DNA of 64,000 bases from Plasmopara viticola (lineage: Eukaryota; Oomycota; Peronosporomycetes; Peronosporales; Peronosporaceae), in assembly GCA_001695595.3 (NCBI GenBank), contig MBPM02000047.1, positions 434,001 through 498,000 of the forward strand, in the 5' to 3' direction. The notes below the pieces were generated by a model that did not search any database, had not been told where the DNA came from, and saw nothing but the letters and a program-made list of their open reading frames with translations. The translations under genes were made by a program, and so were the position numbers. The stretch's first letter is position 1. Every line of letters begins with the position of its first letter. Positions 19,501 to 60,626 of the stretch are shown one piece after another.

Positions 19501-20528
19501 TTAGGGATTGAAGTGTGCTAAAGGATATACGTTTATTGAAAATTCTATTCGTGCGTTTCTTGCTTTACATAAGCGACTGATTCTACTATCACAATTAAGA
19601 CGGAGAATTTACCGCTTTATAGGTAAGTATCTTTCGGAGCACGATAAAATGCAAACCGATGCGGTACCCGTCGTACCCTTGAAGTACAAAAGTACAGAGC
19701 TTCGATGATAGGGAGACAATTTTTAATTCCAGAAGCCTAAGATCAAGTATTAGTCCGTTACAAGTGATTTGATCTTTTCCGGAAACTTTGCGAGGAAACA
19801 GGCAGACAATCTGCCCGGGTAGGCGTAGGATTGCTTAAGAGTGCTATTTGATGTGACGGGATCACAAAGCACTTTGCACAGAGGATATTTGACGATCTTT
19901 CAGTGTCATTATTCCGGTTTCACGGATTAAATGTGTGCACTACAACGCCCTATCTGCTTTAAGCAAATTTAACTGATTCTCTGCTTTTAATCTGGCAAAG
20001 GTTTAAATTTGCTCACACGATTTGGGCAGAGATTTAGAATTAGTATCCCTTCTGCCTCTAATTCGGACATTTTTCACTCTCACGATTGAAACAAGGTCTT
20101 TGTTCGTGTTCACTTTTCAAATGACCTTGTGCACCAAGCCGTCAGTCTCTTGAGGCTCCATTCAACATCGATTACAAATTTGGCTTTGTGTGGTGCCAAA
20201 AGAGACTTCAAGCACCTAGAAAAGATAGAGTGAAGAGGACGCTGAATATCTAGTCGTAGAAATAAGTAAGATTCTGCTCAAAGGAAGAAGGATCGTAATT
20301 TCTTAACACGTTACCTTGTTCTGATTATTGCCTTGCCTTCTTTTGAATCACTACATGGGCGCACTGTTCCTTCGCACTATAAGTTTGCCTTCATTTTTTT
20401 GCTGACTTTACCACACGCAGTAGTCCTAAGAGTCAAGTTTTGGCAGGTAGACAATTTCGTACTTATTATAACCAAAAGCGACACATGCATCGTAACGACC
20501 TTAGTTTGCATTCAAGTCCACTAGTACC
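16503..20528. other. 4-kb gene desert
   Basis: No complete gene is seen. A short coding-like run lies near 19,400-19,505 (plus), including NNVVEAYNEINDFIENN, but it has no neighbouring domain and no start. The GATGTGACGGGATCAC sequence near 19,853 resembles the one near 6,474. The last 300 bp before the XPG start codon should contain its promoter; I recognise no defined element there. Confidence 0.45.
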
Positions 20529-23500
20529 ATGGGCGTGCAGAATCTCTGGGTGTTGCTGGCGCCAGTAGGACGGCAGATCGAAATCGAGTCTCTAGCGGGT
20601 CAGGTGCTGGCAGTAGATGCCAGTATATGGCTCACCCAATTTGTAAAGGCAATGCGCGACGACGAGGGTAACATGATCCGCAACGCGCATCTCATGGGTA
20701 CATTGCACCGAGTAGCTAAACTGCTTTACTATGGGATCCGCCCTGTCTTCGTTTTCGATGGTCAAACACCTGAAATCAAAAAGCGAACGACTGCTAGACG
20801 CAAAAAGAGACAAGAGCAGCAAAGTGCCAATTTCCGCCACACCGCGCAGCGCATTTTACTCAATAAATTAAAACAAGCTAGACAGGAGATGAAAAAGCGA
20901 GGAGGGGCACCAGCTCTTGCGGTCGCTCCAGGCTTTACGCTACCAAAAGATTCAAGTGCAACGAATGGGAAGGAGAAAACTAAAACGGCACAACCTGAAG
21001 CTAAAACTGTAGAACAAGAAAGTATTGAAAAAGGTGAAGCCGATGACATTGAGAAGAATAGCACGCAGACAGGTTGGGAAACAGCCGATAAGGACGAGGA
21101 ACAGCTTACAATCGATGACATTGAGATGGATTCATTAAGTCTGTCCAAGATTGATCTCCACGCCGTGTTTTCTCTGCCACCTCACTTACAGAAAGACATG
21201 ATTCACAAGATCCAGCGTGATCGACGTCAAAATGTGAGAAACCAATTCATTCCGCTAGCCGGTAATCCGGAAAAGTACTCGCACACCCAACTTTCAGCCT
21301 TTTTAAAAACAAGTGCATTAAATCGACGCATTGAAGCAGCGAAAAGACAGAAACGCGAAGAAGAGATAAATCACGAGGGTGGGGTAGGCCAAGGACATCG
21401 CATTGATTCGAATTGCGATCGATTTTACATTTACGAAAACAATGCAAAGCGAAAGGTCGAAAAAGATGAGGACCGCGATGACGTGATGGCAGAAACTGAA
21501 CAAGCCTCTGCTATTGAGGCTATGCAGCCTAATCAAAAAAGTGATAAAGTCTTTGAGTCGATAGAGAAACCACCATTGATTGAGCTTCCTACTGCGAAAG
21601 ATTGGTCGTCTCCAAAAGCCAGTGCAGCGGACATTGCTACAGCATGGGTTGCACGGCATCAGGTTCGTGTCAAACAAGAGCCCGTGCTCGAGATTGAGAA
21701 ATTGAGGCAAGCGCGAATCAAAGCTGACAAACAAATATTTCCTATTGAGCCTTTCGAATCTTCTGACACCAAGCTGCTTCCTCAACACGATCTTTGTGTT
21801 TCGACAAAGCTTAGAGACTTAATTGATCCGAAAGCGATGGTACACTCGCAAAAGGTGCTTCCAGCATCTGAGCTCACATCTGCTCCTGTCGTTTCGGATG
21901 GTGATGAAAGTGATGATGTTCAATGGGAAGAGGTGGCAGCACCGACGACAGAGCAACCTTTGATTAATTCGTTACAGTCTGGAAGTGTCGAGCAAAAAGT
22001 GCCAGGTCAATTTTCAAAGGCTGAGGTAACGACTAGCAATTCTCCAGACCTAAGCACGAAAAGCTTGAACCACGCGAATGTTCAAAATTCTGGAAGCGAT
22101 GAAGAGGTGGAATGGGAAAATGTACCAAGAGCGTCGGTTGATGGTGCCGCTACTTCTACGTCTGGACTCGAAAAATCTGTCTATAAAGAAAAGTGTGATT
22201 CGTCAAACCCCCTTGTGAATACTCCAGATGAAAAATTACTTAATCTACAGGACAAAGAAGAGAATGAGCTGTTTTTGACGCTGAAAAGTGAGATGGAAGA
22301 CGGAAAGGCCCACGAAGATCTTCACCTACTGAAAGCTGACGCGTTGCAATCTGCTATGGTAACTGCTTCGAATTTAACGCAATGGGCTGCAGGAGCGGTG
22401 CGCCGTGCACTGCAAGCACATTCTTTACAACAGAGCGGAAATGTTGAAAGGGATGCAAGCCGAAACCAGTTGGCAGATGATCGACTCGATTTCCAATGTC
22501 AACCCACAGAGGGAACAGCGAAGGCTCCACTTAAAATCTTGGATGAGGAAGACGGGCCCAAGCTGGATAGTACTGAAAGAAAGACGAGTGCTGAAGCGAG
22601 TGTTGTCAAAGACGAGAGCGATGACACACAGAATGACGATGTTGCACAGGGTGAAATGGTGGATAGCTATGAACAGTTGCAAGCCGCACTGGCCGCTTCA
22701 GTCGAGGGTGTGCGTGAAGAAGAGAATGCTGGAAACTCCCGTGCTCGTTATCTTCAATATGCACAATCGAGTTCGACCCCTCAGTCGAATGATACCAATG
22801 AACCAGAAATGGATGCAAAAGCACTGCAAATGGAGCAACTGGAGCTGAAGAAACTCAGGAATCGACAATTGCGTGACACAGAAGGCGTTACTGACGATAT
22901 GGTCGCTGAGGTGATGGCGCTGTTGCGTTTGTTTGGTGTGCCATTTCTCGTAAGTCCAATGGAAGCTGAAGCGCAATGTGCAGCTCTCGAGCAACTTGGC
23001 CTCGTGGATGGCGTCATCACGGACGATAGTGATATCTTCCCGTTTGGGGGCCAGCGAGTTTACAAGAATATTTTTCACCATCAAAAATTTGTGGAAGCCT
23101 TTTCGGCTAGTGACATTGAACGAGAGTTGGGGTTTTCACGAGACCAAATCATCGCTCTAGCGCTGCTTCTCGGTAGCGATTACACGGACGGTGTACGAGG
23201 TATTGGCATTGTTAATGCAACTGAAATTGCAGCGGCTTATCCGGGAATTGAAGGCCTTCGCGACTTTAAACAGTGGGTTTGTGACTTTGATGTAAGTGAA
23301 GAGGCTCAACGCGTAGCTCTGGCTGGTTCGAAGAAGAAAAAGAGAAAAGCGACAAAGAATGAAGTTAAGAATGAAATGGAACAAGACAGTGACGACACTG
23401 AGGAAGAAACGGCGCGCATACGCTTTCAGCGGGCCCACGCAACTGCGCGACGGAAATGGGAGTTGGGTGAGGAATTTCCAAGTAAGCAGGTGGTACAGGC

Positions 23501-23816
23501 GTACATGGCTCCACGAGTTGATCGTTCCGAGGAGCGCTTTTCATGGAGTGCTCCAGACGTGGCTGCGTTACGCAACTATTGCGCCAATGCCTTTGGGTGG
23601 GATCAGCAAAAAAGTGATGGGGTGTTGAAGCCACTCGAGGAAAAGACTCAAGCGGCCCTTGCGAGCGGGGGGCGTCACATCCAAACGCGATTGGATCGAT
23701 TTTTTACGAGCTATAAGGATCAAGTACATTACGCCCAGATTAAAAGTAAACGCTTGCGCTCTGCTGTTCTTCAGGGCAATAAAGACAGCAACAAGAGCAA
23801 GAAATCGCGAAAGTGA
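20529..23816 (+). CDS. ERCC5: XPG/Rad2-type structure-specific endonuclease
   Basis: Single-exon gene of 1,095 residues for the nuclease that makes the 3' incision in nucleotide excision repair. The N nuclease domain starts MGVQNLWVLL; the metal-binding aspartates are at D30 (AVDASIWL) and D77 (VFVFDGQTP). The I domain follows a long acidic spacer: MEAEAQCAALEQLG from residue 811, TDDSDIFPFGG with D833 and D835, then LLGSDYTDGVRGIG with D884 and D887. The spacer of about 700 residues marks this as XPG rather than FEN1 or EXO1. It holds two acidic-tryptophan motifs, DDVQWEEV and EEVEWENV. Near the C terminus QTRLDRFF (1052-1059) fits a PCNA-binding PIP box, followed by a basic tail. The 3' end converges on the next gene with about 60 bp between stops. 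Confidence 0.95.
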   Translation: MGVQNLWVLLAPVGRQIEIESLAGQVLAVDASIWLTQFVKAMRDDEGNMIRNAHLMGTLHRVAKLLYYGIRPVFVFDGQTPEIKKRTTARRKKRQEQQSANFRHTAQRILLNKLKQARQEMKKRGGAPALAVAPGFTLPKDSSATNGKEKTKTAQPEAKTVEQESIEKGEADDIEKNSTQTGWETADKDEEQLTIDDIEMDSLSLSKIDLHAVFSLPPHLQKDMIHKIQRDRRQNVRNQFIPLAGNPEKYSHTQLSAFLKTSALNRRIEAAKRQKREEEINHEGGVGQGHRIDSNCDRFYIYENNAKRKVEKDEDRDDVMAETEQASAIEAMQPNQKSDKVFESIEKPPLIELPTAKDWSSPKASAADIATAWVARHQVRVKQEPVLEIEKLRQARIKADKQIFPIEPFESSDTKLLPQHDLCVSTKLRDLIDPKAMVHSQKVLPASELTSAPVVSDGDESDDVQWEEVAAPTTEQPLINSLQSGSVEQKVPGQFSKAEVTTSNSPDLSTKSLNHANVQNSGSDEEVEWENVPRASVDGAATSTSGLEKSVYKEKCDSSNPLVNTPDEKLLNLQDKEENELFLTLKSEMEDGKAHEDLHLLKADALQSAMVTASNLTQWAAGAVRRALQAHSLQQSGNVERDASRNQLADDRLDFQCQPTEGTAKAPLKILDEEDGPKLDSTERKTSAEASVVKDESDDTQNDDVAQGEMVDSYEQLQAALAASVEGVREEENAGNSRARYLQYAQSSSTPQSNDTNEPEMDAKALQMEQLELKKLRNRQLRDTEGVTDDMVAEVMALLRLFGVPFLVSPMEAEAQCAALEQLGLVDGVITDDSDIFPFGGQRVYKNIFHHQKFVEAFSASDIERELGFSRDQIIALALLLGSDYTDGVRGIGIVNATEIAAAYPGIEGLRDFKQWVCDFDVSEEAQRVALAGSKKKKRKATKNEVKNEMEQDSDDTEEETARIRFQRAHATARRKWELGEEFPSKQVVQAYMAPRVDRSEERFSWSAPDVAALRNYCANAFGWDQQKSDGVLKPLEEKTQAALASGGRHIQTRLDRFFTSYKDQVHYAQIKSKRLRSAVLQGNKDSNKSKKSRK

Positions 23817-23878: not shown

Positions 23879-25066
23879 TCATCGAATAATGGCGGTTGAA
23901 CCTCCGCCAAGTGCCGTACCAGTGTGATTTCCAACGCCGTTTCCCGCTGTTGAGCTTACCATTGCTTCCGGCATTTGAGACGTGACGGCTGCTGCCTTCT
24001 TTTGAGCTCGTTGAGCGTCGATGCGGCCCTGAACGATCGCGGTAAAATCTTTCATGTAAGCGGCGACGACATCGAGGTCAACTATAGCACGCTGTCCAAG
24101 ACGCATCACATCAGCTTCGAAAAGGTCGCTACCAGTCTTACCGCCTAAAGAATTTGCTAAAAGTGATGACGTAGCAAACCCTCCGGCTTCCGCAGTATTA
24201 CCGTTGCTGCGTTCACTGCTATGATAACTCCCTTCGACGTGCTTTAGAATCTGTCCATGCGTGCCAGTAGTACATCGCTGCAGCAAGTTACCAATCGCCA
24301 TGATAATCTGTCCGAGTGCAAGTGTCTTTTGCATTGTCCCACGAAGCGTTGCATCCGTCTCGTGTTGCAAACGCACACCCTGCACTTCCTCTTGTTCTAA
24401 AGTACGTTGGAGCGCGGCGATGCGATTGTTGAATGCCAAGACCTCGTTTACACACTCTTTTTGATACGCAGCAAACTCAAGCCGCTTCCCTTCACTTTCC
24501 TCTTCATGTAAACATTGATTCCGGCTCAAATCGTCGTTTGTTTCGCGCAAAGTGTGGTATCGATTGATGAGATCGCCCACTTCGGGATAGTCCTCGGGCA
24601 CCGTTTCTTGCACGAGCTCCAGGTATCGTGTATACTTTAAATGGTGTCGAACCTGCGTCTTAAGCGTGTCTCTCTCTTGCTGCAGTGTCATGAGCTGGGC
24701 TTGCAATCTGGTCATCTCCTCTTCTTTACTCAAGCGCTGCTTGACTTCGTCATTCGCTCGCTTGACTGCGCGATTGCGCTTGGATTCATTCTCTTGCAAA
24801 AATTTGTTGAATTTAATCAGCGACTCTTGCAGCTCCAAATCCTTTTTGCGCAAAGCGTCTTCTCGACGATGAAACGCGTCATCACGACGGGCAAACTCTT
24901 CTTTTTGAGCATCAAGTGCTTCCTGCACCTCAAATATTTGCCGACGCTTTTCCAGCATTCGCGTCGCTGGTGATACGTGAGCCAGCGTTAAAGTTTGTGG
25001 CATAATGGACCGATTCATGATCATGGAGGCGCCAGCACAAGCAAACGCGGTGCTACGAGGCTCCAT
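23879..25066 (-). CDS. CCDC42/CFAP73-like coiled-coil protein (DUF4200), flagellar
   Basis: Single-exon gene of 395 residues. Residues about 35-190 are almost continuous coiled coil, with the block RRQIFEVQEALDAQKEEF, a stretch rich in RREDALRKKDLELQ, and LIKFNKFLQENESKRNRA. These are hallmarks of the DUF4200 family (CCDC42, CFAP73/MIA2). Members sit on axonemes and, in Chlamydomonas, in the complex that modifies inner dynein arms. The C-terminal part is less ordered and Gly/Ala/Thr-rich. The gene is convergent with XPG. If it is functional, the organism keeps flagellar genes and therefore probably zoospores. The exact paralogue (CCDC42 or CFAP73) cannot be told here. Confidence 0.75.
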   Translation of the reverse strand: MEPRSTAFACAGASMIMNRSIMPQTLTLAHVSPATRMLEKRRQIFEVQEALDAQKEEFARRDDAFHRREDALRKKDLELQESLIKFNKFLQENESKRNRAVKRANDEVKQRLSKEEEMTRLQAQLMTLQQERDTLKTQVRHHLKYTRYLELVQETVPEDYPEVGDLINRYHTLRETNDDLSRNQCLHEEESEGKRLEFAAYQKECVNEVLAFNNRIAALQRTLEQEEVQGVRLQHETDATLRGTMQKTLALGQIIMAIGNLLQRCTTGTHGQILKHVEGSYHSSERSNGNTAEAGGFATSSLLANSLGGKTGSDLFEADVMRLGQRAIVDLDVVAAYMKDFTAIVQGRIDAQRAQKKAAAVTSQMPEAMVSSTAGNGVGNHTGTALGGGSTAIIR

Positions 25067-25337
25067 CTTGAACGATGAGAATAGATGTGACGCTTAGCTA
25101 ACTTTATCAAGAGCAAATTGACCTATCGTTCAGCATATCAAATAAATACTATTTGTTATTGCCAAGCGCTTAGTTTTCGGGTTTCATCTCTCTTGGCCTC
25201 GGATCGAATTGTTTGAACTTTAAAAGTGGCTGTAATATTGTGACCGTCAACCTCCAAACGCAAAGGTTTTCTAGATTGTACTCCTGCTTCAAAGTCTGCA
25301 TACTTTGCTCGTAGTTGTTTTTGTCACAGCATACAAA

Positions 25338-25478: not shown

Positions 25479-25837
25479 CGCTAGTTCTCCTATATATATG
25501 CATCGGGATACGCAAATTGAAGTGTCCAATATATTTCCTCGAAAAACGATTTCGAGTTGTGTTTACAAGTATATAGCTAAAAGTGGTGTTGATCGTCGAA
25601 GAAGGAACAATGCTTTATGATAAGGTCACTGCAGCCAATCAGAAGCCAAAAAGATGACCGAGGGGTTCCGCCAGGGCAAGCGCCCAAGCCCCAAAACTAA
25701 GCGCCTGGCAGAGGTTCCATTCGTTATGCTATATAATAGGTCGATCTTGAAGGGGTGCTGCAGATTTCAAAGTTGAAGTATATAAAGCCAGCGTGGGATT
25801 TGCACACGTTTCTCGCTAACAAAAAGGAACAATCTGG

Positions 25838-28800
25838 ATGGCAACTATGGCCAACGAAGACGGTGACATGTCTCATCAAGCTGTGGAAGGAGATGGTGGA
25901 GAATGGACGAGTTTAGGATGCGTTGAAAAGCAAGCGCAGGCTGCCAGGCGTCATAGTGGGACCTCGATTGCTGAGGCCGGTCAGATTGCAAATTGTGGTC
26001 AAATAAGCGCAGATAGTGAGCTTTTGGAAGAGCCGAAAGAGGCGTTGCTTTCAGTGACGGTATTGACGTCACTGGAGGCGGAGACCAAGTCTGCAAATGG
26101 TCATGGCTTTCACTCCGAGTCGGCCGAGCACGTAGTGGAGAAAGATGATGGTGAGGAGACGGAAGATGACATTGCATTGTTAGAATATTTATCGGGTACG
26201 GAAAGCGATTGCTACGAAGTGGATCGCGCGAGTCGTAAAAGTGACGACGCAGATAATCAGATGTTTAAGGTGGTACTGTCACCTCGATCGAAGAATGAAA
26301 ACTTAGGCACGCCAGATAGTCCTGATGAGCCTCACGTGCTCGGAAAATCAAATTTACACCCAACGGCATCGCATCGAATGAGAGAGGTTCCACGACAGGC
26401 GTCACCTCGACTATTGGAGTCTTTGCCAAGGTCACGCAATGTAGGAGAAGAAGAGCAGAGCACGAAAGCTTCACAAATGATCCACGGGTCACGACCTCTA
26501 GATGGGACGCGGCCAAAAGCACACGAGGGCGAGAGTGAGTGGATTGCGTGCTGTACAGAGGACGGACTCACGTATTACTATAATCAACACACGCATGAAT
26601 CCCAGTGGACGAATCCAACAGTTCCCGGAGTACGGATCTACGTAACTGACGATTTATTTGCTGCTGTATCCGAAAAAGAGCCGTCAAATGCAGATTTGAA
26701 GCAGCTGAACGAGATGCTGCAGTCGGGTATGGATCTTGATGCTGTAAATGCTGAAGGCTTGACGCCATTGCACGTCGCTTGCAAGCTCAAGAATGAACAA
26801 GCAGCAACGCTGTTGGTTTACTATGGAGCCAATCTGGACGCAAAAGCTCTTCCCGATGACGCTACTTCACTGATCTTAGCTTGTAGAGTCAAGAGTACAA
26901 ATGTTGCCAACCTGCTTGTCGAGTCAAATGCAACACTCTTAGCATGCGATAGCGATGGAAATACGGCGCTTCACGTTGCCGCTACCACTGGAGATGAAGA
27001 GCTGGTCATGTGTTTGCTGCGTGGCTGTGATGATACGTTGATCTGCAAGAAAAATGGAGTAGGCGAGACGGCTCTGCATATTGCAGCAAAGCTAGGGTAC
27101 TTAAGCATCGCACAAAGGTTGCTGGCTTACGGTGCAAGTGCTAAAGACGAAGACTTCCAAGGCCGAACGCCACTAATACTAGGCATCTTGGAAAATCACG
27201 TAGAGTGCGTCCAACTTCTTCAGAGCGTCGAGGACACTGCAAGTGAAAATAAACCAGCCGTAGCATCATATCATGGCTCAGTTGATCGTAGAAAGGGAGA
27301 CATTGAGCGCGATGCGCTGAGTATTCTCCATTCGTATCTCTTCCACGTTTTCCCTCAACCATCGACTTCTGAATCGCAAACAATATGTCAGCTTGTTGAT
27401 GAAGTGCGAGATCAAATTGAGTCACTCGAAGCAAATTTGCAGGTAAGTTGCAATCGCCGATAAGTCATGCACCTCACTTTTAGAATCCATTGTCTTTTTA
27501 GTCATTTAGTACTCGTGAACAACAGTACCGGAAACAAATGAAAATCATGTCATCCACTCTTGCAGCGAGTGCTGAAGAGCTGCAAAAGGTTTGGGTTTGT
27601 CGTATACTCTATAACGGCGAACTTGACGGGAAAACTTGACGGTAGTTTTTTTGCATTTTGTAGGAAAAGACGCTTCATGGCGCGGCTCAAAATCAGCTTG
27701 TAGTGCGTGAATTGGAGCTGAATGCAAGCCGCGTATCCCATCAAGCCTTGACGTCGCGATGCGATCTTTTGGAATCAATAGCTCGCAACGCCCAAGAAAG
27801 GCTCGGAAGAGAGCGCTTAGAGCGTACCAACTACGAAGAAAGTATGCAAGAAACGCTACAGTACAGCTTGCAGGAGAATGCAAAGGTAATTGGGTCATGT
27901 CAGCAGCTTCAAGCAAATTGGAATGAGCGGCAGCAGCTGTTTGATCTGCAACAGAGTCGTCCGAATAGCCAAGAAATGTACACTTATCCACGCGACCAAG
28001 CACGTTCTTTCAGCGAGCAAGAACTTAGTAAAGATAGTTATCATCGCTCACAAACCGAAGAATTTACGGGCACTTCATCTAGTACCCAACCAATCAAACA
28101 GTGTTCAAGTGATTATCAGACACAATATCAGCAAGGACAGCACGCCGGATTGAACCACTCGTTGGGGCCGTATCGCTATGCCTATGGGCCAGAAATACTC
28201 GATGCACCCCCACCTCAACTAGACACTGATGATAGTGGGAATGTCAGTGGCACTTCAACGCCGCCATGTGCCCCGACTCGCATTGGTGCTGTTTGGAATC
28301 ATTTTTTTGAAAATGTAGGGTATGCAAGCGATCCAAATAGCTCGGATTCCTTTCATCCGCTATCCCATAAAGTCGGTCAACCCACGATTTCGCATCCTGT
28401 GAACTCGCTCGTTTTCGATGCTATACGGAGAAATAATGTGCAGAAATTGCAACGAATTCTTATGGAAGGTGTCTCTCCGAATCAACGAGACGTTGCTGAA
28501 AAAGGCACGCCGCTCCATTTAGCGTAAGAACTTTTGCCACTACTGTTTGAGACACTGTTTTCTGAAAGCCCCTTCTATTCTTGTAGATGTGAGTTGGGTG
28601 ACATTGACTCGGTCATGTTGCTCAATGAGTTCGGTGCGGAACTTGAAGCCCGAGACGAGGCGGGAAATTCACCACTCCTGGCTGCGTGTTTTCAAGGAAA
28701 CTTTGACTGTGTCAAGTTTCTTCTCCAAAATGCTGTCAATAATCATTCGGTGAACGAGAACGGCGACTCTGCTCTTCATTTAGCAGCCTGGGATGGCAGT

Positions 28801-37551: not shown

Positions 37552-39788
37552 ATGGGGGACGCACTTAAGGGTGCGATGAGACCTCGCGATACTAAGGAGG
37601 TCTCGCAACCACATGGAGAGCATGCAGCGGGAAAGAATGGACGCGTGTGGCTTGGTGCGCTGCATGGAAATCGTTCGGAGGTTGTGCCGGCCTCCAACCG
37701 CGTTTCGATGAGAGTGGCAGAGCAGGAGCGCCAGGTTCGCCTCGCGCGGTCCAATCGCACGCACAAGTATATGATATTACCCGACTCAATGTTTCGATAC
37801 TGCTGGGACCTTCTACTCGCCATTGCAACCATTTTGCTCATTTGGCGTGTACCGTACACGATTGCTTTCGGAGACAGCGACCTCTGGTATTGGTTTGCTT
37901 TCAACAAAACCACCGATGCAATATATTTGCTTGACGTTGTATTGAATTTTCGGTACATGTCGATGATAGTGGCTTCGAAATTAGTTGGTTATAGTAACTC
38001 GGTTAAATGATTGCAGAACAGGATACGTGGAAGACACAGAAGTCATCATGGACCATCGTTTGGTCGCCAAACACTACTTGAAAGTGAGTGGATATCGAAG
38101 CTCGTCTAAGCGTTGGCGACTGAGTTTATTTGGTTTTACAGAGCTGGTTTATTGTGGATCTCATCGGCTCGGTTCCGGTCGAATACATCATCACTTTTAA
38201 ATCAGCCGGCATCTCTAGTGTTGAACGAAAAGCTTTTAAAGCTTCTATGAAATACACTAAAATTCCGGTACGGCCCCTTGCACTTGATCTTGATGATCTG
38301 TATGGAGGATTTAATTGATTTGATGGCCATCTAGAAACTTTTTCGTGTCACTCGGCTCATCAAATTCGTTCAGTAAGCCACAGAAATTAGATTCGCCGCT
38401 CGAGTCTAACGATGTCACTTATTTTAATTCTTAGGAAGTATTTGAAGTTTGCGTATGCTGTCCAAGTGTTTGCGTGTTATATCTCCATTATCCACTGGGT
38501 CGCTTGTCTGTGGGCTGGGCCAATGTTGGGGCTGACGAATGTAGAGGACGAGCAATTAGTTTACAATGAGGCACTTTACTCGGCCGTGCTTCTTATGCTC
38601 AATATATCCGCAGCTGCTGTGGAGCCCAAGTGGCAATTCGTGAGTGCTCTCCTCGGTATTGTGGGCTTCTTGTTCCAATGTTTGACACTCGCAAGTATTA
38701 CAGCTGCTGTAATTGGTTCCAGCTCACGCGCATTGCAATACCAAGAAAAAGTTCGGATGGTTATGAGCGATTTGAAAGCGCTTCATGTTCCGTATGAATT
38801 GCGCAAATCTGCTAAAAAGTACTATGAAACACTTTGGCGTATGAAAAACACTTCCGATCGATACGAAAAGGCCATTTATGATGATGAGGACCTCTCGCCA
38901 GCATTACGGGCCGAGATCGCGCTGTACATCCATCGAAGTCTTATTGCAACGGTTCCTTTGTTCCAAGACTGCTCCGATTCGTGTCTTGCAGCTTGTGTCA
39001 TGAAGCTTAAGACGGAGCTATACATGCGCGGCGATGCAATCTTTCACAAAGGGGACCCGGCTTACTCTATGGTCATAATTAGTCGGGGAGAAGTCAAAGT
39101 AATTTCCCCCGATAATGAAGGTCTTCTTGCAATTCTTCAGCAAGGAAGCTTTTTCGGAGAGATTGGCCTGTTGCGTCATATGACGCGCTCTTGCACAGTG
39201 ATCGCAGGCACTTTTTGTGAACTTAAGTCGCTGGAGAGAAATGATGCGGAAGAAATCTTTGATGCCTATCCGCATATTTACGATCGGCTTCTCGCCGAGG
39301 CTGAGAAACGTCGACTCGAAACTCGTTTGAAAGCACGACTTTACAATGTTAAAGTGCTGGACAATGCTCATGCTGTGGATGTCAGTAGTATTGTCGATGT
39401 ACCCGCAGGAGGTACAAATCGGAAATTCTTCGTCGACGGAGCTGCAGACGATAAGCCTTTGCCCACAGATTCCGGAGAGAAGCGATCCCGCGTCAATTCT
39501 TTCCAAACTGAAGATGGCATTGCTGTCAATAGTGAGTTGGACAGCATGGACATCACTCTTGCCGAGATACAACGCTTAGTCGAAACGCTTAAGTCCACAC
39601 AGGGTCGACTATCTCGAGTTCAGGAACGACGGCAGTCTATTCATATGGCGCTTAGTTCTACTTCGTCCGTCAACAGTATCAACTCAACTCTATTTAATCA
39701 GTCATCATTCGATGTTGAATCCAAAAGCAGCTCTGCCCTTCGCAAGCGAGATTCTTTTCGAGAAAAATACTCTTCAGCCAAAAGGTGA
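37552..39788 (+). CDS. Cyclic-nucleotide-binding, voltage-sensor-type channel without a canonical pore filter
   Basis: Exons are 37552-37952, 38017-38083, 38142-38267, 38335-38372 and 38435-39788, giving 661 residues with all junction phases consistent. The fold is EAG/HCN/CNG-like: S1 around YCWDLLLAIATILLIW, the S2 end LLDVVLNFRTGYVED, S3 SWFIVDLIGSVPVEY, and an S4 of LFRVTRLIKFVQKYLK with positives at R202, R205, K208 and K212. S5 is followed by a pore loop reading MLNISAAAVEPKW (265-277) where K+ channels have a T-x-G-Y/F-G filter. S6, a C-linker and a cyclic-nucleotide domain follow; its phosphate cassette is FFGEIGLLRHMTRSCTV, with E453 and R462 retained. The tail is Ser-rich. The ligand-binding part looks competent, while ion selectivity or conduction is in doubt. 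Confidence 0.88.
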
Positions 39789-48296: not shown

Positions 48297-48361
48297 GCTA
48301 TGCATACAACGTATGACTCGCTACTTAAAGTACGAAATAATCCGAAGTTTTGGACCCAATA

Positions 48362-51348
48362 ATGTCGTTCCGGACGTTGCTAGAGGCGGCCATGGGCTCC
48401 GCACAGGATTTGCCGCAGGACGAAGTAGGTCGCATTGACGCCGAAATGGACATGCTGGATGCTGAGTACGAGCGATCGGATGGACCCGATGAGAGTGACG
48501 ACGCGTACGTACCGCCATCTAGCGAAGAGGACAATTACGACGTCGAAGAAGAAGAAGAAGACTCGGACATTGAGCGTCAGTTGTGGGGAAAGTCTCGCAA
48601 GCGCAGGCGACGTGGAAGTGGCGTGGTTCGACGTCGTCGACGCCGTGGACATACGGGCAAACGCAGCGTCACGGCTACGAAAGTGCCGCCAGAGTTGGCG
48701 ACTGTGCTGGGTGAAGCCAACATGCTGTATGCATCCCACCACTACAATGAGGCCATCGCAATGCTCAAGGATTTCATCAAAAAGGCTCCGACTATTCCAG
48801 ACCCCTACCATACACTTGGAATGATCTACGAAGATCGACAGGATCGAATCAAAGCTCTGCAATTTTTTTTGATTGCGTGCACCTTGACGCCCCAAGACGC
48901 AGAGCTTTGGAAACGCGTGGGACGTATTGCAAAAGATGAAAAGAACTTTGATCAAGCTTTGTTTTGCTTTAAAAAGGCGAGCAATGCAGATCCGAAAGAT
49001 AAAGAGGCTTTATTTAGTTACGCCGAGTTGTGTCGAGAACAGGGTGACAATCGACGAGCTGCCGAGGTTTTCAAGAGGCTGACAGTGCTGATTCCAAAGG
49101 ATCTGTCGTTATGGATTCAAATTGCCGAGGCTTATCATTGCAATGAGCAAGAAGAAGAAGCAGTGGATGCGCTTAAGAGGTGCATTGAGAAAGCCGCGAC
49201 GTCAGATCCAACACAGAGTCTGCACTCGTCGAAATACGAGCTTAATGCTGTGAATATGCTCGCGGACTTGTACATCACACTGAAGAGATATCGGGAAGCC
49301 ATTGATGTGATTCACCACCTCCATTTACGACGAGCATCAAATCTAGACTCTGAACAAGTGGAAGGTGACCCAGGTGGCTTGCCACTCGATATTGCTGTAA
49401 AGTACGGCATTTGTCACCTGTTTGAGCAAGATTTTGCTACAGCCGAGTCTATGTTTACGCATTTGTTCGCACAAAACGTGGAAGTTTTTGGCGATCTGTA
49501 TCTTGATGTGGCTGATGCCTATATTGCGCTAGGAAATCACGACCGGAAGGCTGCAGCAATTTTAGAGCAGCTACTGAGCTGTGAAGAGTTTCCGATGGAG
49601 CAAATCTGTACTAAGTATGCCGCATGTCACGACCGATTGGGCATTTATGACGTTGCTGTAGAGTATTATGAGAAAGCTTTGGCTCATCAGCGCTCATCAC
49701 CAGATTTGACTGTCGACCCAGAGTTGATGTTGCAGGCCATGCAGGCCACGCGGAAAAAGAATCGACCATTGGAGGGCATTGATTTGCTGCAAAAGTATCT
49801 GCCCGAGGCGATGCGCCCGCCAATTAGACCGTACTGGATAAATTCGTCTCAGAAAAATAAGAGCCACGACTCGGGTTCAGACGGAATCGGCAAACGTGCT
49901 CTGGATGACAAAGACAGTGTTGTTGACGAATCAGGTGATGACGAAGAAGAAGCAGAGGACCAGCCTCGAATGGAGATGGCGCATGACCCATCATTGTCAG
50001 TCGATGCTATGGAAAATGGTGTACGTTTAAAACTCTTAATTGAGTATGGCCACTTGAAGAAGTTGTCGGGTGAGATTGAAGTGCTGTGCCAGGTCGGCAT
50101 CCCAATTATCCTTACTTCTCTGAACCAGACGTCTTTTCGCTTGTCTGGTCGTGTAAGAAACCCCATGGCAGAACCGCAGGACGTCATTACAGAAAGCGAT
50201 GCACAGTCTATGGGCTTCCAAGTCTTGAAATCCGAGTACTTGGTTGACATTACGGATTCGAGACAGCGCGAGTCGTTCATGGGCATTGTAATACGCGTGG
50301 CGCAGCAGATTGTCGTTTCGCGTGCGCTTGGCGAACAGCAGTACTTTAACTTGGTAATTGACGTCGCACAGACACTTACCGAGCTTGGCAAGTACGTGGC
50401 CGCAATCGAGTTGCTGACAGATGTAAACACGTCAAACAAGATCATAAAACCCACATTGCGATTTGAGCTGCGCTTCCTGGCCCTTGTCATCGCCCTTGAA
50501 TTCAAAGAGAACCGTATGGCATACGAGTGTGCACGCTTAAATATAATGGAGGATCCCCACAATCTTGGTTATTGGAATCTGTTTTCGCGCGTGATCGCGA
50601 TCACGGGTGTTTTTTCGTGGCATCAAAAGTTCTTGGCGAAGTTACTGCGCGACGATCCCGAGAGCTACCCCGCCATACTCCTTGCTGGCCACCAATCGTC
50701 TGCGTGGGACATTGCGTCACTGACGGTGGGGGAGCTGACGCTTGCTCACCAAAAGCACCCTGACGATCCACTGACGCTCTTCTGCATTGGCTTGGCGTTT
50801 CTGTCTGCTTCGATGCAGCGGACCATTAACGATCGTCAGCACACTGTAGCCAAAGCTTTTGCGTTTCTTCAGCAGTATGAGCGAACTCGCATTGCGGCCC
50901 CGAGTGACATCTCGACGGAATTTCGTCAGATTGAGGCCTCGTACAACATTGGTCGCGCTCACCAGCAATTGGTACGTCCAACGTTCGTATTGAGTATCGC
51001 GATTACATGTTGCTTGTATTAATCACCATTGACGCAATAAATGTCATGTGTTAGGGTTTGTTTCATTTGGCAATTCCCATGTACGAGCGAGTGCTGCGAT
51101 TCTTTGAGGAGAGCAAGAAGAGCAAACGTGAGGTGCCTCCAGAGTACTTGATCTGTCGAGAAACAGCCTACAATTTGTCGCTTATCTACAAGCAAAGGTG
51201 CGTCTCTGGTACAGCTTGGTGATTTATCCATCAAGTGTGTTTTGACTTGGCTTTTCTATTTGTATTTTTGTTCTGCTGACCTTTGTGCTATAGTGGTGCC
51301 AATGATTTGGCCAGGTACCTGATCGCAAAATATCTTACGATAGAGTAA
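48362..51348 (+). CDS. GTF3C3: TFIIIC subunit with TPR repeats (GTF3C3/Tfc4 type)
   Basis: Exons are 48362-50971, 51055-51197 and 51294-51348, giving 935 residues. The protein is the TPR-scaffold subunit of RNA polymerase III factor TFIIIC, which in yeast (tau131) recruits TFIIIB. The N terminus is very acidic (EEEEEDSDIE), then strongly basic (SRKRRRRGSG, RRRRRRG). TPR repeats start near residue 115 (LGEANMLYASHHYNEAIAML, PYHTLGMIYEDRQDRIKAL) and continue through the first half; a disordered acidic break (DESGDDEEEAED) precedes the second half. The spliced C terminus reads LSLIYKQSGANDLARYLIAK, as in this family. An upstream in-frame TTG exists, but the ATG at 48,362 is the natural start. 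Exon 1 could read into intron 1 for 17 codons if unspliced. Confidence 0.92.
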
Positions 51349-58610: not shown

Positions 58611-58797
58611 ACGAGGATGCCAAACACAGGGTGAATACATTGGTCGCAGTTCGCCAATGTTGCGCGGTCCGGTAGCGTCCTCTTTCCCGCGCGCGCGGTC
58701 AAGCTAGTCGCATGCTCGTGCTCCATATAATAGCGATAAACCTTCAGTCACAGTATTTTGTGTGTCAAAAAAGGAGCCATCGCCCATTGCTGGGCAA

Positions 58798-60626
58798 ATG
58801 AATGACGCTGGTGTCAGCGATGCAGAGCTTGCAGCGTGTGTTGCAACCCTACAAAAGCTGCATAAAGAGGAACATTACCAGCAATATCAGCAGCTACCAC
58901 GCTTTAAGCCGCTACGGACGGCGCTAATCCCGCTGATTATTGACCTGCGCGCCAAGTTTTTTCATGGGAACTCAACAGGTAGCGACGATCTTCGTCAAAA
59001 GCGCAAGAGAGCAACAAAGGTAGAGCGCGCAAGGCAAAAGGCGCTTGATCAGCAATATGTAAACAACACAAATCTGCGTGCCGAGCGGATCGCGCGATTG
59101 TCGGCGCTCCAGTCACAGAACCCGCAGCTTGCCAATGTTCCGGACGGAGTCGCGGTGGCTGACGAGCACGAGCTAAAGTATGAAGAGAAGACTGAAAAGC
59201 ACTTAAACTATCACCGGGCTTGCTACACGTGTAAGGTCAAGTTTCGCAAGCTTCATCACTTCTACGACCGACTCTGTCCGACTTGTGCTGAGCTCAATTA
59301 CAAGAAGCGTTTCCAAGTTGCCGATTTACGGGGACATGTCGCGATTGTTACTGGTGCTCGAGTGAAGATTGGTTACGAGATTGCACTGAAGTTGCTGCGA
59401 AGCGAGGCAAAGGTAGTGGCCACAACGCGGTTTCCTAAGGATGCTGCCATTCGGTACGCCAAGGAAAAGGATTTTGAAGTCTGGAAAGATCGGTTGCAAA
59501 TTTACGGCATGGACTTCCGTGATCTAGGCGTGATCGACAAGTTCATGGATCACATCAAATTAACTTACGGGAGCCTTGACATCGTAATAAACAACGCAAC
59601 CCAAACAATTCGACGCCCCGTGCACTACTACAAACACTTGCTTGAGTGCGAGGTGGCACCGGTGATGGAAAGCACGACGAAAGCCAACCAGCTTCTTTGT
59701 GACAATGCCCGACTTCTTAATAGTGCGTCTTCTAGTGAGGACATTGAAAGTAATGACGTCGGTGTCAACGGTACCGCTATCATCACATCTGGCGAGGATG
59801 CCTCGCTTTTCACATCACCTGCATCAGTGCATCTGTCGCAAGTGCCTCTTATTGCTGAAGACCAGTCTTCCTCAGAAACGGAAGCTTTGTTTCCCAAAGG
59901 TCAAGTCGATAACAATCAGCAACAAGTGGATTTGCGCACCTCAAACTCATGGGTACAAAAAATCGACCAGATTGAGACTATGGGTTGGTTTAAGTGTGTC
60001 GCGACTTCGATGCTCGCGTTTTGACCGTTAGTATGTTTGCTGTTTAACTGTATACAGAGCTTGTGGAAGTGTTTGCGATTAACACTATGGCCCCTTTTCT
60101 TCTCAACAAACGTGCCATTCCTCTTCTAGAGGCGGTAAGTGGCAATTTGATGGTCGTGTCACTTGGATTAAAATCTTTGGTTGACTTTCTATGCTCAGAG
60201 TTCGAATGAATGTCGATTTATTATCAATGTCAGCGCAATGGAAGGCAAATTCTATCGTAACAAGACCCCGAATCACCCCCACACAAACATGGCAAAGGCC
60301 GCTGTAAACATGATGACGAGGACGTGTGGCGCAGATCTTGCCCAAAAGGGCATTTTTATGAACAGCGTTGACACGGTAACAATAGTTTTGTCAATTGACT
60401 AAAGTAAATTTGCTAAAAATGTTCTGTGCAGGGCTGGATTAACGACGAGAACCCGCGTGACGTGGCGGTTCGCATTGCTGATACCCACAATTTCCAGACG
60501 CCACTGGATGAAATTGATGCAGCTGCTCGAGTTCTCGACCCCATTTTTTTTCTGCACCAAGAGGGCAACACGGCCAAACCATTTTTTGGTCAGTTTTTGA
60601 AGGATTACGCGGTTTCGGAGTGGTGA
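58798..60626 (+). CDS. SDR-fold protein with zinc-ribbon-like N-terminal insert (four exons)
   Basis: Exons are 58798-59983, 60058-60134, 60199-60375 and 60432-60626, giving 544 residues. The first donor (ATGG-GTTGGT) is inferred from frame. Residues 1-130 are helical and charged. Four cysteines, C142-x2-C145 and C160-x2-C163, form a zinc-ribbon-like unit. A Rossmann domain starts at [20 protein letters not shown] (TGxxxxxG, 185-192), with INNAT at 264-268. A Ser/Asn-rich insert of about 100 residues precedes [13 protein letters not shown]. The catalytic region reads INVSAMEG (S433) and [11 protein letters not shown]454 is kept, but the residue four before it is T450, where SDR enzymes have Tyr. 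It may use another residue (Y440) or have lost redox activity. Substrate unknown. Confidence 0.85.

Follow-up and report, generated by a model that had tools for sequence, protein, structure and literature searches.

What can a channel-like protein do that has a voltage sensor and a cyclic-nucleotide pocket, and a pore loop in which neither the K+ nor the CNG selectivity filter can be read? The question is raised by a gene of Plasmopara viticola encoding a channel with a cyclic-nucleotide-binding domain (CNBD), located at positions 37552-39788 (+) of the 64,000-nucleotide stretch of DNA analysed here, which we call the window. We refer to it as the degenerate-pore gene, and to its oomycete orthologues as the degenerate-pore family.

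Gene model and domain architecture

The degenerate-pore gene consists of five exons separated by GT-AG introns and carries an open frame of 661 amino acids. Exon 1 (37552..37952, +) encodes the N-terminus, an HCN-domain-like stretch (aa 45-74; the label derives from the alignment to HCN1, which begins at aa 42), S1 and S2. Exon 2 (38017..38083, +) covers S2-S3, exon 3 (38142..38267, +) S3 and the first half of S4 (K186-P198), and exon 4 (38335..38372, +) the second half of S4 (K199, R202, R205 and K208). Exon 5 (38435..39788, +), in which residue n begins at window position 37800+3n, runs as an uninterrupted open frame from S5 through the stop codon. The exon 1 junction and exons 2 to 4 are matched by the orthologue P0001 (653 aa, from M9), which agrees with the gene model across all four junctions and shows four substitutions. 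The source contig of P0001 measures 2112 nt, compared to 2213 nt for the unspliced gene from M9 to stop, and must therefore be spliced. Since this spliced, transcript-sized contig encodes the same protein, no extra exon supplies a filter. A missed intron or exon carrying GYG was rejected on the same grounds, the gene model being open and the P0001 contig spliced. The preliminary description of this locus had considered exon 5 continuous and an overlooked intron unlikely, and both the open frame and the P0001 contig agree with it; the filter-supplying extra exon that it proposed to look for in cDNA did not appear in this contig.

Within exon 5, S5 (aa 213-244; 38439..38534, +) was placed through the HCN1 alignment and an AlphaFold2 helix, the numbering used here being the P0001 number plus 8. 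Then come a pore helix that is kept (aa 250-266; 38550..38600, +), corresponding to AlphaFold2 helix 242-258 in P0001 numbering, in a block with pLDDT 84-90, and a degenerate filter loop, N-I-S-A-A-A-V-E-P (N267-P275; 38601..38627, +). These are followed by S6 (aa 277-311; 38631..38735, +), by the C-linker, defined on the HCN1 alignment (aa 312-400; 38736..39002, +), and by the CNBD (aa 401-500; 39003..39302, +), the sole domain that Pfam matches in this protein (PF00027, aa 407-488, E 7.7e-18). By its architecture, namely a voltage-sensing domain (VSD) with a basic S4, S5-P-S6, C-linker and CNBD, the degenerate-pore gene belongs to the CNBD-channel superfamily. The earlier account of S1-S6, C-linker and nucleotide-binding cassette in one open frame was confirmed by the 661-aa frame, with E453 and R462 at the places given for them.

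The AlphaFold2 model shows the pore helix with confidence and a short loop after it. The P0001 monomer reached a pTM of 0.46 and a mean pLDDT of 71.8, and whole-chain TM-scores in the Foldseek rows listed were low (0.31-0.36); therefore, its domain arrangement is unreliable and we inferred no pore geometry from it. The best solved-structure matches were HCN1 and HCN4, both by sequence (HCN1, E 9.3e-54) and by Foldseek. Several of the top VIA-align rows were CNBD-only structures or CRP-type proteins.

The pore loop in orthologues and paralogues

A protein search returned at least 93 matches, among which P0001-P0041 were counted as orthologues (45-99% identity over the aligned part). The named ones belong to nine genera: Phytophthora, Nothophytophthora, Pythium, Globisporangium, Lagenidium, Aphanomyces, Saprolegnia, Achlya and Thraustotheca. 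The loop is covered in 40 of the 41 listed orthologues, P0039 being the exception, and none of these 40 among the matches listed shows GYG, GFG or GET at this place. A GFG string in P0037 sits in S6 and a GEA string in P0012 where the pore helix begins, both outside the loop. Hence the absence of T-x-G-Y/F-G and of a CNG-style G-E-T, first noted in the Plasmopara sequence, holds throughout the orthologues covering the loop, and the search for orthologues with a normal GYG or GFG, suggested as a way to disprove it, found none.

On the HCN1 alignment, CIGYG of HCN corresponds to NISAA in the degenerate-pore protein, and position 269 in this register is Gly in only 4 of the 33 sequences retained for the rate analysis below. 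In a CNG register set by CNGA1, the filter Gly position would be N, D or S in 33/33 family sequences. N267 is conserved as N in 29/33, while G288 and T300, in S6, are invariant (33/33). The loop of Peronosporales and Pythiales reads mostly LNIS followed by variable residues, and that of Saprolegniales reads LNMSP, FDLGK, FNLGQ or LNLGR. The TVGY/FG-type filter, the canonical mark of CNBD channels (PMC7576140), was thus found at the loop in none of the 40 orthologues, nor was the TIGE-type filter of animal CNG channels (0/40); no plant CNGC triplet occurs at the loop either, its place being taken by NIS or similar residues. Four orthologue gene models (P0014, P0029, P0036 and P0041) appear to be fused to neighbours (SNARE, AMP-binding) or to contain retained-intron-like insertions.

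The same genome contains at least 11 CNBD-channel loci, as counted on the part of the 50 CNBD matches that was examined, with 20 further regions fetched. The K+ signature is absent at six of them. In addition to the degenerate-pore gene, these are L010 (loop CVNASPP), L011 (CLNASPP), L012 (G000:C26:594852-598505; MGQNITV, with GQN at the filter position), L013/L052 (LGISEST) and L014 (LGVSATH). L010 and L011 adjoin each other (G000:C2:40341-46627). The signature is kept at L015, L016 and L053 and in the two-repeat tandems L054 (G000:C25) and L056 (G000:C27), which have canonical filters and are of the kind described from oomycetes in PMC7576140.

Among the homologues of L010 and L011, here termed family B, the loop is NASPP in all 63 covering sequences, and the pore is as constrained as the CNBD. 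The preliminary description had taken conservation of the loop across genera as support for a functional novel pore. This support is weak for the degenerate-pore gene, whose loop differs between orders, and strong for L010 and L011, whose NASPP loop may form a functional pore of a new kind and is arguably a better candidate for one than the loop of the degenerate-pore gene.

Constraint on the sensors and on the pore

Residues associated with sensing are kept throughout the family. S4 positions 193, 196, 199, 202, 205 and 208 are basic in 18/18 covering sequences, D128 in S2 is kept in 20/20 and D162 in S3 in 19/19, and G452, E453, R462 and S463 of the nucleotide pocket are invariant (33/33). 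On the basis of these residues, voltage sensing and cyclic-nucleotide binding are predicted to be retained, and both should still be expected of the degenerate-pore protein.

Protein-level site rates were computed under LG+G8. The degenerate-pore set comprised 33 of 42 sequences (the query plus 41), many of them incomplete, after removal of nine near-duplicates, fragments, fusions and odd models. As controls we used a canonical two-repeat CNBD channel with GYG, here the tandem control (33 of 34 input sequences retained, chosen from 116 matches), and family B (64 of 70 retained, chosen from 72 matches). Set means were near 1 (1.01, 1.04 and 0.95), with 32-38% of sites above 1.

Mean rates in the degenerate-pore family were 0.33 for S4, 0.32 for the C-linker and 0.37 for the CNBD. 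They rose to 0.79 in the pore helix, 1.24 in the filter decade (aa 267-276), 0.82 in S6 (1.10 in its outer and 0.52 in its inner half) and 2.12 in the turret. The C-terminal tail and the N-terminus reached 1.64 and 1.99, so that the pore, with its slower helix and S6, is not neutral. The ratio of the pore domain (254-311) to C-linker plus CNBD was 2.56 in the whole set (n=33), 2.18 without Saprolegniales (n=26), 2.02 in complete sequences (n=11) and 2.66 in Saprolegniales (n=7), with Mann-Whitney p values between 9e-12 and 1.5e-9.

The two repeats of the tandem control gave ratios in the opposite direction (0.53 and 0.44), while family B was level (1.11). Fast evolution of the two tandem CNBDs (0.56 and 1.10) accounts for part of the low tandem ratio, yet the tandem pore elements are also slower in themselves. 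Specifically, scaled to the mean of each protein, the pore helix evolves at 0.79 in the degenerate-pore family, compared to 0.14 and 0.18 in the tandem repeats and 0.27 in family B. The corresponding values are 1.24 against 0.29 and 0.49 and against 0.38 for the filter decade, and 0.82 against 0.29 and 0.40 and against 0.29 for S6; for inner S6, 0.52 stands against 0.13-0.18 in the controls.

In conclusion, the degenerate-pore family holds its voltage sensor, C-linker and nucleotide pocket, while turret, pore helix, loop and S6 are far less constrained. Since family B retains a tight pore, loss of GYG alone does not loosen a pore, and the rate contrast separates filter loss with a constrained pore, as in family B, from filter loss with a loosened pore and sensors kept, as in the degenerate-pore family.

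Readings of the degenerate pore

The preliminary description had left three options side by side, namely a new permeation path, a regulatory partner in a heteromer, or a non-conducting sensor. Site rates favour the latter two; a conserved novel pore is disfavoured, both by the rate contrast and by a loop that differs between orders. We therefore prefer, with the chances for and against it evenly balanced, to see the degenerate-pore protein as a putative voltage/cNMP-sensing regulatory subunit, or as a pseudo-channel that itself has no selective pore. Such a protein would still assemble through its C-linker and would move with voltage and cAMP/cGMP, and a homomer would form no selective ion path, because NISAA stands where HCN has CIGYG. 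Its role would be to regulate a mixed tetramer as one of its subunits, or to sense voltage and cNMP and act on a partner via C-linker and CNBD. A precedent is HCNL1, in which filter changes have left the central pore non-functional (PMC10651576). As a counterpoint, a subunit of a mixed tetramer should perhaps keep its pore-lining residues tighter, which might speak against the regulatory role. Coupling from S4 to the C-linker, which should run via inner S6, is weakened as an idea, since inner S6 is faster here than in the controls. The non-neutral rates of the pore, with G288 and T300 invariant in S6 and N267 mostly kept, also count against this reading, as do the plant CNGCs, which conduct with varied triplets. 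A dominant-negative HCN1 construct reportedly carries AAA in place of GYG; an engineered dominant-negative HCN1 is among the references listed in PMC10651576. A VSD and a CNBD used in regulation are also described for the sperm Na+/H+ exchanger sNHE, which differs in having an exchanger domain, Pfam showing the CNBD alone in the degenerate-pore protein.

A broader scenario, which we put forward tentatively and with the balance somewhat against it, is that of an oomycete lineage that may have abandoned conduction and turned into a coincidence sensor of voltage and cNMP, signalling via C-linker and CNBD, with the second family and its NASPP loop as a possible new pore. The rate contrast makes directly testable the notion of a 6TM-CNBD protein that is a sensor without being a channel. 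According to a CNBD-channel survey, strong departures from TVGY/FG mark individual channels and not clades, metazoan CNG being the sole exception analysed and plant CNGC a further case named outside its analysis (PMC7576140). This rule is broken by the degenerate-pore family in nine named genera, and by no fewer than five other loci of the genome that carries the degenerate-pore gene. In addition, a 2016 review mentions that many HCN homologues of oomycetes have TM helices and no discernible channel domain (PMC4820453), and the degenerate-pore family may be included among these; the comparison is by description, the portions of that review bearing on these homologues giving no pore alignment, family or rate analysis. 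These two papers came closest in the open-access literature, as represented by the parts of it consulted, where no earlier description of the pore of this family was found.

The main rival to a regulatory or non-conducting protein, which we hold to be rather unlikely, is a channel that conducts cations (Na+/K+/Ca2+) non-selectively through a short and wide filter of the CNG or plant CNGC type, in which L-N-I-S would replace I-G-E-T or G-Q-N. Animal CNG and plant CNGC are likewise CNBD channels with non-GYG filters, and the loops compared here follow a related [LMV]-[GN]-x-[STN] pattern: LGISE (L013), LGMSP (P0042), LGVSA (L014), LGQTV (P0046), MGQNI (L012) and VNASP (family B). We also count in its favour what looks to be a gapless length match to CNGA1, together with the pore helix and short loop retained in the AlphaFold2 model. 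GQN, present in the paralogue L012, is among the Arabidopsis CNGC triplets, and CNGCs conduct with varied triplets (PMC7830781). However, the degenerate-pore loop has neither GET nor a CNGC triplet and evolves fast, and the pore outpaces the regulatory domains by a factor of 2.0-2.7, which is not so in family B and the canonical family. The loop also varies between oomycete orders, and Gly is missing from the presumed CNG filter position in all sequences and from HCN position 269 in most.

That the degenerate-pore protein derives from an ordinary HCN-type channel whose filter was lost inside the oomycetes is improbable. HCN1 and HCN4, its best solved-structure matches, do share with it six TM helices, an HCN-domain-like N-terminus, S4, C-linker and CNBD; they differ in CIGYG and in the stretch after the filter, which is shorter here, and the AU test, applied to fast tree searches in which one sequence stood for HCN, rejected a forced grouping of the family with HCN (p 0.0075). 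The trees comprised one HCN (Narcine) and one partial CNG, weakly placed in both trees, and no plant CNGC. With pore columns, the canonical channels split from all non-GYG families (support 92). Without them, in a de novo alignment, a core of the degenerate-pore family, L013/P0042, L014/P0046 and P0047 was split off with support 95, all non-GYG families were grouped at only 55, and family B joined L012 at only 58. Both trees thus put the degenerate-pore family with other non-GYG lineages. One clade of all non-GYG families was not rejected (p 0.09), but the tree preferred by the AU test joins L012 and family B to the canonical set (p 0.78). The fast searches are rough, since two constraints with identical splits gave log-likelihoods 14 apart. 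P0042 and P0047, both metagenomic proteins without GYG, fell on the side of the degenerate-pore family in the trees, so that this lineage may reach beyond oomycetes.

Still less probable is a channel resembling zebrafish HCNL1, an HCN-like protein whose central pore is non-functional through filter changes (PMC10651576), with protons or cations passing through the voltage sensor and the central pore dead. The architecture is shared, the filter looks dead in both, and HCNL1 provides a precedent; as reported for it, however, HCNL1 requires an S4 methionine, which opens a gap for protons, and has lost the CNBD arginine, whereas the six basic S4 positions and R462 are invariant in the degenerate-pore family.

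A pseudogene, mis-splicing or assembly artefact, to which one could refer the retained-intron-like insertions in the P0036 and P0041 models, has a negligible probability and was rejected, given an intact, spliced, transcript-sized contig and a missing filter common to 40 orthologues.

Any link of the degenerate-pore family to zoospores or flagella is weak, and we do not claim one. Among the matches listed, none is named from Peronospora, Hyaloperonospora or Bremia, in a database where about a quarter of the proteins carry source names and which may lack these genomes; likewise, the zoosporic Plasmopara halstedii has no named match among those listed from the orthologue search. A depletion of PF00520 genes is reported for the Peronospora lineage (PMC6264045, Table 4), and the term "channel" is absent from the main text of a flagellar proteome paper. 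Elsewhere in the window, Pfam identified an XPG nuclease (20505-23816, +), a WW plus ankyrin protein (25820-27463, +), a TPR protein (48341-51022, +) and a short-chain dehydrogenase (58708-60024, +). A coiled-coil protein with DUF4200, a domain that we take to be typical of flagellar CFAP73/CCDC42-type proteins, is encoded at 23879-25093 (-).
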